Assembly (NCBI GenBank): GCA_002189035.1 | Contig: NEEC01000007.1 | Coordinates: forward strand, 3,348,001-3,412,000 | Direction: 5' to 3' | DNA: 64,000 nt | Source: Utricularia gibba | Taxonomy: Eukaryota; Streptophyta; Magnoliopsida; Lamiales; Lentibulariaceae | Shown: in pieces, positions 11,049 to 56,879 of the stretch | Layout of the letters: every line of letters starts with the position of its first letter | How positions within the stretch are numbered: the stretch's first letter is position 1 | Notes under the pieces: generated by a model | What the model was told of the DNA's origin: nothing | Database searches by the model: none | The model's input: the letters and a program-made list of their open reading frames with translations, nothing else | Program-made: the position numbers and the translations under genes

Positions 11049-12977
11049 CTACCCCCTCCGCTTACTTGAAACATTTAGCATCCAACAAGGGCTCCCCTCG
11101 AACGGCTCCGCATCTTCGATCATTTGATTCACGCGTTCCTTCTGGGCCTCATCGCTGGTATCAACCTTGCTCCACTCATACAGTTCCATGTCGTAGCACT
11201 CGTCCAAAACGAACTGCGGGATTCCAGTGCCCCTGAAGAGCCATAGCCCCTTCACCTTGTATGGTGGGTTCCCACCGATAACCAGCATCTTCCCAAATGC
11301 ATATTTGCGGGCCAAATCCATCCGCTGTAGGAACCCACTCACCTTGTTCAAGGTGACGAACGAAACTGTATTCTCCTCGTTATATTTGTAGTCACAGAAC
11401 CAGAGGGAGTATCCTTCGGCGTCATACATATCCCAGAACCCTGTAAAGACACGTGTCAGAAAAATATGCGACAATGCTCGAATTGCAGTAGATAATGAGA
11501 CGGCACCTTTGATGGCAACTTCACGGAAGTTGGTTTTGGTGTTGGAGTAAAGGCGCTTCCACTCGTCGAGGATCATCTTGCTTGGAGGCAGGAGATCCAA
11601 GGGATTCTTTGCTTTAGGCTTGGGTGCTTCTTCTTCCTCATCAAGATCTCTGGGCTTCGCCTCCTCTTTCTTTGCTGCCTTTGGTTCCTCTTTTGGCTTC
11701 GCTGTTTCCTTTGGTTTGGCAGGTTCCTTAGGCTGAATAGGCTTCTTCGAAGCCACCGGTGGAATAGAATCTGCTTGGATTACATCTCCCCATATCTTCT
11801 TGAAATGTGGCTGATTGATCAGAGTCCATATGTAGCGCTCAACATGAAGGAACTCTGAGGTGAAACTCTTGGTCAAAATAGTCTTGAATCCAAAACCCAA
11901 ATTACATGTCATGATGATGTCTGCAAGCGTGACACCATGACCAACTAAATAGGTATTGGACGTAAGGTGAGTATTAAGTGCACCAAGCGCCCTCTTCAGT
12001 GCAGCAATTGCAGCCTCCTCAGCCTTGGCACACCATCAGAGAACATGAGAAGATAAAATAGGAGACATTGGAACTAAAAACAAACACCATATTCTTTGCA
12101 TACCGGAGGAAGATACAAACGAAATCCCAGACGGGGAAACAGCCAGTTTCCAATATTTGCATCTATTTCAGAAGCAGAAAAATCTATCCATTGCTCAATT
12201 TGACCCTAAAAAATTAATAACAAGAGTTAGTAAATATTAGATCAGGAAAAACAAATCAATACACCATCCAGCAGCTTACATAATCAAGTGAAGTAGAGCC
12301 ATACAAACCACCTTCTGGATTCAAACGGGCCACTAAAAAATGCCAAACAAACGCAAAAGAAATGCCTTAGACTCACTGATGCAAAAACACGTGCAGTAGT
12401 TAAGGTTACCGTATCGTGCAATTGCATTGCTCTCAAATACTGGGCCATCAGGGGTTTCAAGCACAGGGATCTAACAAAAGAAAACCTTTCAGATTAGCAC
12501 AAGAGTCAAGTCTTAACTATGAAAACACATTTTCCCTAAACAACCTGATTATACCTTTCCAATAGGATTCAACTTGACAAATTCAGGGGTCTTATTGGTT
12601 ACACCCATCTGAAAATCCTTGGATAATTCAACCTTCACGCCACTATACTCTGCTGCAATAAGCGCCTTGTAGGCGTTCTTATTCCCAGGGTTGGAATGCA
12701 GAATCTGAAGGCCAAAGAATAAATTAATTAAGGTGATGTTTGCGTCTTCCCACAGTTTTAATTTTCAATTACAACGAATACATGCAAACACTGAGGAGCT
12801 GAAGTTACAAAAAACTAGTACACACGAAATCAGATAGAAACATGAGAAATCGGAAACTTATAACTCGGTATACAAGAAAAATGATCACGAATCTCCATAC
12901 ACACCAATAACAACAGTAGATCCACGCGGATACAGAGCAAAAAAACAGTAAAAAAAAAGGCCACTCACCAGAGCCAT
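11049..12977 (-). CDS. Elongation factor 1-gamma (eEF1B-gamma), C-terminal frameshift
   Basis: Structural subunit of the eEF1B nucleotide-exchange complex that recycles eEF1A-GTP in cytosolic translation. Seven coding exons in minus order: 12977-12969 (MAL), 12704-12555, 12470-12410, 12332-12280, 12205-12104, 12023-11507, 11440-11049; all junctions GT-AG and in phase. The protein has an N-terminal glutathione-S-transferase-like domain (ILHSNPGNKNAYKAL to about residue 200), a lysine/proline/glutamate-rich linker (KPKETAKPKEEPKAAKKEEA) and the conserved C-terminal eEF1G domain (FWDMYDAEGYSLWFCDYKYN). The expected ending, EPLLDAKCFK then TAA at 11064-11062, is present but out of frame: the G-run at 11097-11094 (CCCC on plus) is one base shorter than needed, so the annotated frame ends SPCWMLNVSSKRRG with a stop at 11051-11049 (about 427 residues instead of 423). 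This is either a real one-base loss or a homopolymer error. The very short first coding exon is typical of plant copies. Confidence 0.96.
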
Positions 12978-31926: not shown

Positions 31927-33706
<1,780 letters not shown>

Positions 33707-33741
33707 CGTCCCTGGAGACACCGCAAACACTACAGCAATGG

Positions 33742-33836
33742 AAACCCTAGCAGGAATTTATAGAGAAGAAAACCTGCGGTGGCACCAAACGGGCGCGTTC
33801 AGTATTAACAGGCCCAGTCGAAATTTGGGCTGGGCC
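33742..33836 (-). promoter_or_regulatory. eL6 promoter: site II elements, TATA and telo-box
   Basis: Upstream of the start codon: telo-box AAACCCTAG on the plus strand (33742-33750), TATA box CTATAAAT reading minus (33763-33756), and two site II-type TGGGCC/GGCCCA motifs (about 33811-33817 and 33825-33836). This arrangement is characteristic of plant ribosomal-protein promoters. Confidence 0.65.
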
Positions 33837-34183: not shown

Positions 34184-34555
34184 TGATGCAGTTCGATACA
34201 AAAGGATTCCTTTCAAGGCCAACTAACCCACACGATACTAAAGGAGTTGTGTGTCCAAACCAGTTACTTTAGACAAGAAAATAAATTCAGGAACTGTAGT
34301 ATGAAAGGTTGATCCCCATGCAAAGCTTTAGTCAAAGTCTCACACCAGACAATAACTACAAGATCACGGCGATGCCTCTTGTTGAAGATCCGACTATTAT
34401 TACTGAAATTCCATCCAATTCCAAAAACCACCGCCCCTCCACCATGTTCCCCCCTTTTTGACCCAAGTCTCCAAAATGAGTTATACGGCAGCACTTGGAC
34501 CACTTACTTGGAATGGGTCATAAGCCCATTAGTCACAACCTCATCATCCCCACTA

Positions 34556-35030
34556 GGCATTGAAACATTCTTCTTGGAATGAGGGTGATAGAGAAATAGA
34601 TGGCGAACATTGAAGACGTCAGACATAGAATAGCCAAATGGGAGATGAACCTTATAAGCATTGGAGTTGATCTTGGCAAGGATCGCTAAAAGAAAATCCA
34701 TACTCAAAACCACCCAAGGTTGAGAAGAGATGGGAAGCAGCAAATATAATCCAGCATTAGAACTTTGATCCTTAGCACGTTGGCATACATGACATTGCCT
34801 CACAAATTTAGCGACATGGCATTGTTGACCTAGCCAATAGTAAAGTTCATGCAAAAGAAAGAGAGTGTGATCATGCCCCACATGTCCCTCATTGTGTAGA
34901 TCACGAATCATATAAAATTGGAGGCTAGAGCTTGGAATACATAACTTTGTGCCTTTAAATAAATAACCATCTATAAGAGAACAAAAGAAGATAGTTACCC
35001 TATGAGAGCCCATGAAGTATCACCGAGAAA
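34556..35030 (-). pseudogene. Gypsy integrase remnant lacking its catalytic core
   Basis: The HHCC zinc domain is present (YMIRDLHNEGHVGHDHTLFL, then CHVCQRAKD). Immediately after the start of the core (QPWVVLSMDFLLAIL) the reading frame jumps to the integrase C-terminal segment (AKINSNAYKVHLPFGY, SDVFNVRHLFLYH). The DDE core, about two hundred residues in relatives, is therefore missing, with the frame kept open. Confidence 0.85.
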
Positions 35031-35299
35031 TATGGGTCAGATTTATATAATGAGGGAAGAGATTCAAAACCAACTACAAACCACCTTCATGATAGTATGA
35101 CAAGTGCGCTGTCGACTCAATGCATCAGCCACACAATTGTGGGAGCCATCCTTATGTCTAATCTAAATGGTAAATTGCTGAAGATAATTCAACCACTTGA
35201 CATGTATATTGAATACCTTGTCTTGGGAATTGATGTGACGAAGGGAATCATGATCTATCCACATAACAAAATCCTATTGAAATAGACCATGACATCAGT

Positions 35300-36590
35300 G
35301 TTTCACAGCCTATACAAGAGAAAACAACTCAAGATCATATGTTGAGTAGTGACGTTTACCACCATCCAAATTTTCACTAAAATAGGCAATGAGACGTCCA
35401 CCCTGGCTAAGAACAACACCAATACCCATAGTTGAGGTATCACAATGTAATTCAAAAGCTTGATAGACATTTGTAATGCTAGTATAGGTGCAGTAGTCAT
35501 GATAGTCTTTATATTTTCAAATGTTGTTTCTGCTGCAGGTGATAAAAAAAAAACTACTGCCATGCTTACAATCTATAATGGGAGCCATCTTGAAGCTGAA
35601 ATGAGGGAAAATGACGATAGAATGATGCCATTCCATGAAAACTCCGAACTTCAGTAATGGATATAGGGGATGGCCATGATTTTATAGTGTGGACCTTTGC
35701 AGAATCCACCTCCAACCCAATTCCTGAAATGACATAACCTAAGAATAATACCCTATCAGTGAAAAATACACATTTATGAGCAGATGCAAATAATTGCTCC
35801 TGTCATAGAACATTTCAAACATCTCTAACATGCTGCTTATGTGAGGCTAGATCACGACTATATATCAAAATATCATCAAAGTAGACAACTAAACATTGTA
35901 TAATAAAAGGCCGAAGAAGTTGATTCATAACCTTCATAAATGTACTTGGAGCATTAGAAAAACCGAATGGCATGACTAGCCATTCATATAGACCTTCTCG
36001 GGTCTTGAATGTAGTTTTCCACTCATCCCTGAGACCATTCTGAGTTTGATTGTATCCACTTTTCAGATATAATTTGCTAAAAATGGTAGCACCATGTATT
36101 TGATCCAACAAATCATCTAATCTTGGGATGGGAAACCGACCCTTCACCATAATCTTATTAATGACACGACTATTCACACGCATCCTCCATGTTCCTTGTT
36201 TTTTTGGTACTAAGATCACAGACACAACACATGGACTTTAACTCTCTCAAATGTGTCTGTTGCACAATAAATTTTCAACTTGTGGTCTTAACTTCTCGTG
36301 CTCGCTTGAGCTCATGTGATAATGAGGCTTCTTTGGCAATATAGATACTAGAATGAAGTCAATTTGATGTTAAATATCTTGAAGAGGTGGTAACATAGTG
36401 GGCAACTCCATGGGAAACACATCAGAAAATTCATCCAAAAAAATTGCAGCATTCTTTGACATAATGTCTCATTGTTGAGTAGACTCTTTTTCCACAATTA
36501 AGAAAGCCATAGATTGTTCTAGTTCCCCTTAAAGTTGAGCACAAGTAAATATGTTGACTAAGTCCTTCACTTCTATGCTAGGTGGACGGC
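35300..36590 (-). pseudogene. Gypsy reverse transcriptase and RNase H remnant
   Basis: Reverse transcriptase blocks: [56 protein letters not shown] and the catalytic [13 protein letters not shown] (about 35815-36225), then FLGYVISGIGLEVD. RNase H remnant with ISQGGR-like and WIDHDSLR-like pieces at about 35160-35480. Stops and frameshifts are present, though the YFDD catalytic motif itself is intact. Confidence 0.88.
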
Positions 36591-47931: not shown

Positions 47932-49800
47932 TATATGCCTATGTCAATGACGAAAAGCTATAACCAAGAAAATGCATTTTTATTGGTTTCAAACCCATTA
48001 CCAAAGGTTGTAAGCTATGGAGTCCCAACCTGAAACATGTGATTATGTGTGAGGATGTTGTATTCAATGAAAAGTCTCTTATGTACAAAAAATCTGAGGA
48101 AAGGAAAAATGTTAAAATTGCTTCCCAAGAGACTTCCTCAAGTAAAAACCAGTTGAGTATTGAATTTGTAGAATCCAAAGTTGAACAAAATGCTAAGGGT
48201 GATGCTTCTAAGTATGCTAACGAGCTATCCACAACCCTTGAAAATTTAGAGCAAACCATAGTTATTTGAAGAACTTGAAGAGAAGTTAAAATTTCTGCTA
48301 TATATATTGAAGCTGACCTAATAGCTTTTGCTCTTGTAATAGCTGATGATCTTGAGTTGGAAGATGAACCTAGCACTCTCCAAGATGCTACAAAGTCCAA
48401 AAATTCGAAGTAATGGCATGAAGCCATGGGTGAATAAATTGCCTGTCTACAAAAAAAAAAAAAAAAAGACATGGTCTCTTGTTCTGCTTCCTGCATGAAA
48501 GAAAGTTGTAAAATGCAAATTAAGTAATAGAATTAAGGATGGAATTCTTGGGGTTGAACCAAGAAGATTCAAAGTAAGGCTAGTGGCTAAAGGTTTTAGT
48601 CAAATTCCCGACTTGGATTTTATGATGCTTATTTCATGGTAGTTAAACTCACTACCATTCAACTTATCCCAAGTCTGGTTGTAAGAAAGAATTTGGAGCT
48701 ACATTAGATGGATATAAAGATTGCATTTTTAAATGGCACACTCAATGAGGAGATTTACATGCTTCAACCCGAATGATACATTAAACAAGGAACTATAGAA
48801 CTTGAGTGGAAGCTGAATATAGCTTTTTACGAGCTCAAGCAATCGCCCTAACAATGATATAAGCGATTTGCTATCTTTTTATTCAATATTAGCTTCTTAC
48901 AAATTGCTTATGATCCTTATTTCTTTTTCTTAAAACAAGCTAATGATGTTGATATGGTGTTCTTATTAGTATATATTGAAAATATACTTCTTGTTGCAAA
49001 GTTTACTTATGTTATTCAACAACTTAAGCATAAGCTTGTCTCAAAGTTCGAGATGAAAGATCTCAATGAAGCATAAAAAATTCTTAGCATCAAAATTTTC
49101 TAGGACAAGTCAAAAGGGTACTTTGCTGATGACTCAATCCTCTTACATGCAAAAGGTTCTTGAAAAATTTCTTATATTTGATGAAAAACCTGTTAGTGTT
49201 CCTCTTGCTGCTCACTTTAAGTTATCGGCATCATTGTGCCCAAAAAATGTTGAAAAAGTGCAAGAGATGGAATGTATGTCGTATGCCAATGTGTTTGACT
49301 CTCTAATGCATTATATAATATGCACAAGACTCGATTTTTCTCATACTATGAGTGTGTTAAGTCGATACATGGGAAACTTGGGAAAAAAACATTGGCATGT
49401 TGCTCAGTGGACTTTGAGATTCCTTGCTAGAACTCAAAACGTCTTTTATTCACTTCTTCAAACATTGGAGTTATTGGTTTCTCTAACTCTTGATTTGGAC
49501 TCTCGAAAATCCCTTATTGTCTATATATTCTTATTGAGAAATACAACTATATCATGGAAGGCAATGTTACAACATTCACCAGCACTTTCCACCACCAAGA
49601 TCGAATTAATGTCACTTACCGTGGCTGTCAAAGAAGCTATTTGGCTTAATGGTTTTCTCTCTAAACTTGGTGTGCAAAAACTGATGAAAGGAGTTCTATG
49701 TTTTAGTTGAAGTGCAATTTTTTTGGCTAAAGATTCTATGTTTCACAACCGCACAAAGCATATTGATGTTTGTTACAGTACATCCAAGAAGTGATTGAGA
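47932..49800 (+). pseudogene. Copia integrase end, reverse transcriptase and RNase H remnant
   Basis: WAYVNDEKL-like restart after the hAT TSD, then CIFLGFKPITKGCKLW-like and VVFNEKSLMYKK (47960-48090), reverse-transcriptase start RRFKVRLVAKGFSQIPDLDF (about 48568-48620), catalytic region ISIYIENILLVAKF-like (about 48966-49005) where the usual YVDD is YIEN, and the C-terminal/RNase H part at 49066-49710 (SYMQKVLEKFLIFD, SVLSRYMGNLGKKHW, ALSTTKIELMSLTVAVKEAI). Stops in the RT part. Confidence 0.88.
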
Positions 49801-51950: not shown

Positions 51951-52146
51951 AACTTATTTCAAATTCTTTCGTTGGTATTCTTAGGGTCATCATCAAATGC
52001 CCAATTGACCCTTTGATTGGGCTTATTGCTTTTAATTTTATAGTGACCCAATCATCTTTATAAAAACATCATCCTTGTCGGCTTCGAGCGGGGAATATCT
52101 GATTGACAATTCCAATCGCGATCCCGGTTGTGCAGTGAGACCAGAA

Positions 52147-54169
52147 ATGGCCACCTGTGGGGAAGTGATTTCTAGTGTCCAAGTACCTCTACTAGACGAC
52201 TCCGTGGAGGGCTGCGTCGACATCAAAGGTCGCCCTGTTTTCCGATCCAAATCCGGTGGCTGGAAGTCTGCAGCTTTCATCATAGGTACTTTATTTACTC
52301 CATATCCTCGCTCGAATTCTTTATTTTCGACTTTTCTTTTTGTTTCTGTGACCGGAGCGAGCAATTTCAGGAGTTGAGGTGGCGGAGAGATTCAGTTACT
52401 ATGGAATTAGTTCGAATCTGATCAGCTATTTGACCGGGCCTCTGGGCCAGTCCACGGCCACGGCGGCGGAGAATGTGAATGCGTGGGCTGGGACGGCGTC
52501 ACTTCAACCGCTATTGGGTGCTTTTGTAGCTGACTCTTTTCTGGGTCGATATCGAATGATCGTTCTTGCTTCGATCCTTTATGTTGTGGTTGGTAGTCAC
52601 ATTCTTCAGCGAAACTGTCGTTTTCTTTTTGCTGGTTAAGCTCTTTGTTCATATATTTCCACTGATTTCAGGGCCTTGGATGCTTGGCTCTGTCAGCTCT
52701 GATTTACACATCAAACTCATCCAACTGCCGAAGTTCACCGAGTGATTCTTGTTCACCACCAACTTTCCAAATTGTTCTTTTCTTCTTCTCTCTGTATATG
52801 GTAGCTCTAGCTCAAGGAGGGCACAAGCCTTGTGTCCAAGCTTTTGGAGCAGACCAGTTTGATGAAAGAAATCCACGAGAATGTAAAGACAAGAGCTCCT
52901 TCTTCAACTGGTGGTACTTTTCATTCTGCTCTGGTGTTTTAGTAGCGCTTTCAGTTTTAAGCTACATACAAGACAACTTGAGTTGGGCCCTTGGTTTTGG
53001 TATCCCCTGCATCATCATGGTCATGGCCCTGATTCTCTTTCTGCTTGGAACTTCCACATACCGGTTCCATGTCGAAAATGATAATGAAAATCCATTCCTC
53101 AGAATAGGTAGAGTGTTTGTTAGAGCAGCAAAAAATTGGCGTGTTACAGATGCAGCTGTAGCAGCAGAAGCCGAGGCTCAGGGAATTCTTCTTCACCAAG
53201 GGTTTCAGCACTACAAGTAGGTATCCTTGAAGTATCCTTTTGCTTCATCCGTTGAAAGCATGGTCTTGCCACATAAACTGTTGGTCACTTGATTTCATGT
53301 GCTGCTTTGGCTTCTTGCTTCTTCTGAGGATTAACTCAAGTTTATGCATTGCTGATAGGTGTCTTAATAAAGCGTTAATTGTACCTGAAGGATCAAGTAG
53401 AAATTCCAATGTCTGCAGCATCAGTGGCATTGAAGAAGCCAAAGCTGCTCTGAGGCTCGTTCCAATATGGGCATCATGCTTGATTTACACGGTAGTGTAC
53501 GCTCAAGTCACAACTTTTTTCACCAAGCAAGGGACTACCATGGACCGCCAAATCACTGCAAGCTTTCAAGTGCCACCTGCCTCTCTTCAGTTACTCGTTA
53601 CTCTATCCATCGTTCTCTTCATTCCTATCTACGACCGCATCCTGGTTCCAGTAGCACGAGCCATAACTAAGAGACCATCAGGTATAACAATGCTTCAGCG
53701 AATTGGAACAGGATTGTTCCTCTCTGCACTTTCGATGGTGTATGCTGCCCTAGTGGAGAAGAAACGCCTTGATACGGCAATTGAACATGGGCTGATCGAC
53801 AAACCAAAGGTGACAGTCCCAATGAGCGTGTGGTGGTTGGCACCTCAGTACTTGCTCTCTGGGATTTCAGATGTGTTCACAATTGTTGGCTTGCAAGAGT
53901 TGTTCTATGATCAGGTTCCCAATGAGCTCAGAAGTATTGGCTTAGCTTTGTATCTTAGCATATTTGGAGTGGGGAGTTTCATCAGCACTTTTCTTATATC
54001 TTGTATAGAGAGAGCCACAGGTGGCCCCGGTCGGGATAGCTGGTTCTCGAACAACCTTAATCGAGCTCACCTGGATTATTTCTACTGGCTCCTGGCTAGC
54101 CTCAGTGCAGCTTCACTTGTGGCCTATCTCCTGTTTGCGAGCTCCTATGTTTACACCAGAAAAAGGTGA
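52147..54169 (+). CDS. NRT1/PTR family (NPF) proton-coupled transporter
   Basis: Proton-coupled solute transporter of the plant NPF group (nitrate, peptides, hormones or glucosinolates in different members). Four exons: 52147-52285, 52371-52588, 52672-53216, 53359-54169; 570 residues, in phase, all GT-AG. The proton-coupling motif EVAER (residues 49-53) is intact after [10 protein letters not shown], followed by [20 protein letters not shown]. The rest shows the family layout: [12 protein letters not shown], about twelve hydrophobic segments, [26 protein letters not shown], and the C-terminal half with [20 protein letters not shown] and [20 protein letters not shown]. Closest in feel to the NPF5 clade; substrate cannot be read from sequence. 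The residue before LNKAL is C where most relatives have F. The start is the first ATG; there is no in-frame ATG between it and the upstream TATA-like TTTATAAAAAC (about 52057). Convergent with the patellin gene. Confidence 0.95.
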
Positions 54170-55001: not shown

Positions 55002-56788
55002 TCAGTTGGTGTACTGAGTAACTTTGAGGCGATAAAGCAGCATCTTTTTCTTTTTCGTGGAATTGCTGATTATGAGGAGTATCTTACCTAGCTCGCCAGC
55101 TGGGAATCTACCAGAGACGATTGGCTCATCAGTTGGAAGCATCTTACGAGTCCTTTGGATGAGCACTGTGAATCCAGACTTCGGAATGAATTCTGCGCTG
55201 TATCTGACTCCCCATCCAATCACTCGAAGCTCCCATACGACAGTGCACATCTGCAAAGTAGTCCATGAGATCCATACTTGACGGGAACGCAAAAAAAAAA
55301 TGTTGATAACAAACCTCATTGACGGCAATCTCGATGGTTCGCTTAGTTGCTGGTTTGATTGTGAGCTTTGTAGCAGGATCATTCATGGTGAACTCCGGAT
55401 TGCATTCACAGGGATCCAAGCTGAGACCACCGTACACTACCGGCACTTGTTCTGGTCGTATGTACCTGCGGTAGCAACAATGTTATAAAAAATGAGAAAC
55501 AAGCTATCCTGTACAGAAGTTGGCATGACCAATATTGGATCACTAACTTGAAGAGGGTTTTGGCCGTCTTCATCGGACTGGAAAACACGAATTTGCTCTT
55601 GGTTCGTTGCGTGAGAAACGGAGTCATCATTGAGTAGAAAGCCAAGTACCACCAAGGAACATTTATGAAAACCTATGTGAACAAAACGTTGGTCGAGTGT
55701 GATTCAAACCGCATAAAGGTTTCTCACCAAGAATGCAGAAGGTCTGATCCAACGACAACAAAATATAACTACTCCAGAATTGCCAAGCTGTAAGTGCGTC
55801 CCAAAAATTGATATGTTGGTGATGACAATTGAGTCAGAACTAAAAAACTTGCCTGCTTTGCAACGAAGCCAGGGTAATTATCCTGCAACACTTGCAGCGC
55901 TTGTTGAGTTGCACTCCTCAGTCCCCTCAGCCCTGGGCCCGTAGAGTTTTTCAGGTCACTAACCTGAAAAATGGTGTTTATCCCACCAGGGCTGTAGTCC
56001 AACTTCCTTATATTTCTCTCCAAGAACTGAATCCTCCACCGCAGAAACCTCACTCTCTTATCTTCATCAGCAAAGGCTTTTGCATACACCTCTTTATTCG
56101 TAAACTCCCCATAGACATTATAACAAACAGGACGCCCGCATTTGTCTTGCCCGTGCATGAACACGATCTTCTCGAAGTCATCGCCTAAATCTTGCTTCAC
56201 CAATTCGTCTACACCAAAATCCCTTCTCCATTGTATAGTATTTCTCAGCATGGAGAAGGCTTCATTGACGTCGAAATCGCGCGCGCGTAAAAATTTGAGC
56301 AAAACAACTTCCGTTCGATCGTCTTTCATCAGAGGCACCTCCCAAATTGAGGTGTCATTTACATTTGAACCTGCCAATAGATGTTTCATATCTTCTAATG
56401 CTTTGAGCTCGAGATCTGAGAGATCCTCAGATTTGCTGCTTTCTTCCTTGACAGAAGTCGGCGACAGTGGAGACTTATTCTTACTTTTCTTGTCCACTAC
56501 TGGCGTCTCCGAAGATTCAGAATCCGATCTCATCAACATAGAAGCCAGCTTTGGACTCTCTTCTCTTTCTCCTAACGCTGCCATCACCGTTACACGTGGC
56601 GTAGGTAACGGTTCTTCTTCTTCCAAGACCGTGACCGCCGATTCCAGCTTCACCTCATGAACTGTACCCGACGTCTGGGGTGACGCTGGAGTTGGGGCTG
56701 AATCCTGCAGAATGCCCAACTCCACCGACGCCAGAGGCGGCTCGAATATGGATTCCGGTGGGAACGCTTGGAGAGTCTCATCCACCAT
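55002..56788 (-). CDS. Patellin (SEC14/CRAL-TRIO plus GOLD domain protein)
   Basis: Phosphoinositide-binding membrane-trafficking protein of the patellin family, which acts at the cell plate and plasma membrane. Four exons in minus order: 56788-55853, 55672-55548, 55465-55315, 55250-55002; 486 residues. An acidic, serine-rich N-terminal region (about residues 1-130) precedes a CRAL-TRIO N domain (VVLLKFLRARDFDVNEAFSM, about 160-185), the SEC14 lipid-binding domain (CGRPVCYNVYGEF, then FQVSDLKN, DNYPGFVAKQ, VFINVPWWYLAFYSMMTPFL, YIRPEQVPVVYGGLS) and a C-terminal GOLD domain (CTVVWELRVIGWGVRYSAEF, then GKILLIISNSTKKKKMLLYR). Intron 1 has a GC donor (CAG|GCAAGT). The shorter N-terminal region resembles the smaller patellins rather than PATL1/2. 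Start is the first in-frame ATG. Confidence 0.95.
55673..55852 (-). other. GC-AG intron 1 of the patellin gene
   Basis: Donor AAGCAG|GCAAGTTTT at 55852, acceptor CACATAG|GTTTTC at 55673. Joining gives FVAKQ then VFINVPWWY, the conserved SEC14 continuation. GCAAGT is the preferred form of GC donors. Confidence 0.88.
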
Positions 56789-56879
56789 TTGGAGATTGGT
56801 GGTGCGTCACGGGAACGATTGTTACTCAACTCTGCTTCACTCCTATTCCTCCTCCTCTCAACATGGTTTAGGTAACTTT

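Follow-up and report, generated by a model that had tools for sequence, protein, structure and literature searches.

The eEF1B-gamma gene and its surroundings

The window (the whole 64,000-nucleotide stretch of Utricularia gibba DNA that was analyzed) carries on its minus strand, from position 12977 to position 11049, a plant eEF1B-gamma gene that is complete and has seven exons. Its splice sites have GT at every donor and AG at every acceptor, and the spliced coding sequence runs without internal stops to the ending MIEDAEPFEGSPCWMLNVSSKRRG and a stop codon. The gene product matched the EF1G C-terminal domain profile (PF00647) with 123.6 bits against a cut-off of 23.3 (E 3.8e-36), and this domain resembles that of the human protein in 1PBU, in an alignment that stops short of the last residues. 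A sequence-only reading of this DNA had described the gene as intact ahead of a frame break at its end; in agreement, the seven exons, the splice sites, and the 413 codons ahead of the lesion were all sound. The features of the gene are as follows.

12969-12977, minus strand: exon 1 (ATG, MAL), with donor gtgagt
12555-12704, minus strand: exon 2, from the spliced coding sequence
12410-12470, minus strand: exon 3, from the spliced coding sequence
12280-12332, minus strand: exon 4, from the spliced coding sequence
12104-12205, minus strand: exon 5, from the spliced coding sequence
11507-12023, minus strand: exon 6, covering the last of the GST-like part, the Lys-rich linker, and the first portion of the C-terminal domain
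11049-11440, minus strand: exon 7 in the open frame, with TAG at 11051-11049 (PF00647 profile positions 33-106)
11094-11097, minus strand: CCCC (GGGG in gene orientation), where the base is missing, as read from the sequence
11062-11094, minus strand: family ending EPLLDAKCFK and TAA, one frame off, by translation
11049-11093, minus strand: 14-residue tail SPCWMLNVSSKRRG and TAG in the open frame, by translation

Elsewhere in the window lie an NPF/PTR2 transporter (52036-54169), a patellin with CRAL-TRIO and GOLD domains (55002-56806), and the first exon of ribosomal protein L6 (RPL6; 33416-33757); the main exons of these three genes displayed no clear frame break. Transposon fragments were found at 982-1416, 34504-36237, and 49057-49710, namely a piece of MuDR-type transposase identified by a Pfam match and Ty3/gypsy-like and copia-like pieces that were assigned by eye only.

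The C-terminal frame break and the intact paralog

The plus strand reads CCCC at exactly 11094-11097, where the sequence-only reading had placed a G run on the gene strand that is one base short. From 11094 the neighboring frame reads GAGCCCTTGTTGGATGCTAAATGTTTCAAGTAA, which encodes EPLLDAKCFK and the TAA stop and has its last base at 11062, so the family ending is present but out of frame, as had been proposed. The different 14-residue tail that had also been predicted was likewise recovered: the open frame continues from ...DAEPFEG into SPCWMLNVSSKRRG and stops at 11051-11049, and the family C-terminus EPLLDAKCFK, as it stands in the paralog described below, is not found in the open frame of the window gene. 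Our literature search returned no match for LLDAKCFK and none for plant eEF1B gamma.

We searched a genome sequence of 100 Mb in 516 contigs and found one eEF1B-gamma paralog (G000:C304, L007), which is 78% identical to the window gene in the last two exons, matches it in the lengths of exons 2-6, and ends EPFEGEPLLDAKCFK in frame, followed by a stop codon. A haplotig or other second representation of the window locus was sought in the assembly, and only this 78% identical paralog was found. At the site that matches the lesion the paralog reads GAG GGA GAG, and any GGN glycine codon that loses its third base at this position yields the observed GAGGGGAG; the lost base thus need not have belonged to a G run. 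The glycine codons of the window gene are GGT (9), GGG (7), GGA (7), and GGC (4). The claim that one base is missing stands, but its origin in the G run, as a loss from G5 to G4, is plausible rather than established. In the window, G/C runs of length four number 122 and those of length five number 24, with no deficit of fives, so run-length statistics alone do not expose an error.

Over the 412 codons before the lesion, comparison of the window gene with its paralog gave dN of ∼0.10 and dS of ∼1.0 (dN/dS ∼0.1), which indicates that the window copy has been under purifying selection. Past the lesion, 3 of 33 bases differ between the copies (TTG/CTG, GCT/GCC, and TAA/TGA), each of them a synonymous difference when read in the family frame. 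Of the 99 single changes possible in those 33 bases, only 18 would be synonymous, so three of three would arise by chance with a frequency of ∼0.006. Translation therefore used the family frame up to the very recent past, or does so even now, and this frame was in use for nearly all of the history of both eEF1B-gamma copies.

These observations bear on two alternatives. If the window copy were a decaying pseudogene, the frameshift would be its first visible lesion, and the second, intact copy that is ∼78% identical over the last two exons could be taken as consistent with such decay. The seven exons, the splice sites, the 413 intact codons ahead of the lesion, and the dN/dS of ∼0.1 against the paralog all argue the other way, and we regard a pseudogene as very unlikely. 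The second alternative is that programmed -1 frameshifting or some other recoding restores the family ending in translation, as might be suggested by the overlap of the two endings in different frames and by the location of the site at a G run. The site reads TTC GAG GGG AGC CCT and lacks an in-frame X XXY YYZ slippery heptamer, the paralog has the ending plainly in frame, and no such recoding is known in plant nuclear eEF1B-gamma. Because no slippery heptamer is present at the site, recoding was rejected, and we consider it exceedingly improbable.

One-base losses elsewhere in the assembly

Conserved domains of HSP70, HSP90, tubulin, RPB2, and PROCN were searched across the genome, and the matches, totaling ∼69 kb, contained 12 frame changes without room for an intron, one of which was counted twice since it lies in both C241 and C304. 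The net length change was exactly -1 in 8 of the 12 and exactly +1 in none of them. Nine frame breaks, in HSP70, HSP90, and Prp8, could be placed, and in every case precisely one base has been lost, in most of them next to a G/C run. When the genes were aligned with intact copies at the nucleotide level, single-base deletions were located in HSP70 genes (one on C496, one on C451, and two on C255) and in HSP90 genes (one on C451 and two on C255), and a third HSP90 gene, on C414, reads CGGG, one base short of the family frame. The contexts of deletions in the nucleotide alignments included GC-CCC, TC-CCC, AT-CCC, and CGGG for CGGGG. HSP70 on C1, HSP70 on C241/C304, and tubulin on C1 were left out as proof, as the affected base could not be placed. 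The exons of Pol II RPB2 displayed no clear frame break, so errors are common, not universal.

The copies of HSP70 and HSP90 on C255 (L014 and L020; C255:2809484-2811383 and 3188504-3190013) have two one-base deletions each, and L020 also lacks nine in-frame bases; the contig may be of lower accuracy, or the copies may be real pseudogenes. A divergent HSP70 copy (L011:6790 and L012:2470) has the same frame change in C241 and C304; the copy may truly be a pseudogene, or both contigs may share an error. The search also found an open frame of 1085 residues that matches RNA polymerase beta (G000:C516:38666-39835). It probably represents plastid rpoB, and on that basis C516 may be the plastid genome.

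The most clear-cut case is Prp8, where the true sequence can be judged from function. The Prp8 central domain had one match only in the searched genome, and an exon of this gene has a frame break at GCCCCAGACC, a CCCC site (L027:5700-5980; G000:C412:∼508300). Two open frames that overlap in the genome, with no intron, match human Prp8 up to residue 408 and from residue 407 onward, respectively. With a single central domain, the plant would lack an essential splicing factor if the break were true, which should be lethal, although the single-copy status is subject to the genome sequence possibly being incomplete (one contig has exactly 8,500,000 bases). The Prp8 break is most likely an assembly error.

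A second, independent measure of accuracy came from doubled sequence. C241 repeats part of C304 (C304:2223600-2238500; L011, L012, L029, and L030) and looks like a redundant contig. When C241:16497 to 30399 was compared with C304, excluding a diverged edge, ∼13.7 kb aligned with zero substitutions and nine one-base length differences, all of them in runs of at least two bases; this identity except in run length points to sequencing error and not to diverged alleles. The shorter run was in C241 in six cases and in C304 in three, and the differences included C5/C4 and C4/C3, in which the large contig has the shorter run. The error rate of the large contig (C304) estimated from the doubled sequence is ∼1 per 4.6 kb; C241, a small contig, may be less accurate than the contig that carries the window. 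One-base errors are thus seen elsewhere in this assembly, at places where the true sequence can be inferred. In its large contigs the assembly loses roughly one single base per 5-10 kb. At this rate the probability that a coding sequence of 1.28 kb is hit is ∼13-25%, and the several kilobases of coding sequence in the window would be expected to contain one error.

Origin of the altered ending and comparison with known systems

The sequence-only reading had left the choice between a real allele and a homopolymer error. In the first case, a recent frameshift allele, fixed or heterozygous, would replace the last ten residues with the 14-residue tail while the intact paralog covers for it. The frame does stay open for 14 residues before a stop, an intact eEF1B-gamma paralog does exist, and the lesion falls within the final ten codons, the part of the gene most likely to tolerate a real allele; in addition, real pseudogenes may be present among the broken HSP copies, which would weaken the case for error. 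Against this, the old frame shows only synonymous differences past the lesion, which would require a very young change, and one-base losses are common in the assembly, the 13-25% per coding sequence being much larger than our estimate of how often a conserved gene would carry a true frameshift. We consider a real allele unlikely. It gained no positive support, whereas an error is strongly favored by the one-base losses elsewhere, even if its homopolymer origin is not established.

We propose that the assembly dropped a single base at the glycine codon that precedes EPLLDAKCFK, which would cause the ending to be misread in an otherwise ordinary, functional plant gene. The frame break, in a gene whose paralog is intact, would then be one more of the one-base losses observed repeatedly in this assembly, and we regard it as very probably an assembly or sequencing deletion rather than a new C-terminus. 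Like the paralog, the true protein most likely has the ending EPFEGEPLLDAKCFK. The altered eEF1B-gamma ending matters little alone, and the by-product of the analysis is a caution about the assembly: an isolated frame break in any of its genes says little about biology, and findings from the Utricularia gibba genome that depend on one such break should be discounted where reads do not back them.

Like the plant eEF1B-gamma family (EF1G, PF00647), the window gene encodes a GST-like part, a Lys-rich linker, and a conserved C-terminal domain, and as assembled it differs from the family only in the last ten residues. Homopolymer-length errors persist in long-read assemblies, according to the Polypolish report (PMC8812927), and such errors break genes in these assemblies, as described in the Kastor report (PMC12007338). 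The pattern found here resembles the errors in those accounts in that single-base losses break otherwise intact conserved genes. Both reports deal with small or bacterial genomes, unlike that of Utricularia gibba, where the losses lie in short runs, mostly of G/C, and their pattern suggests the source of error.
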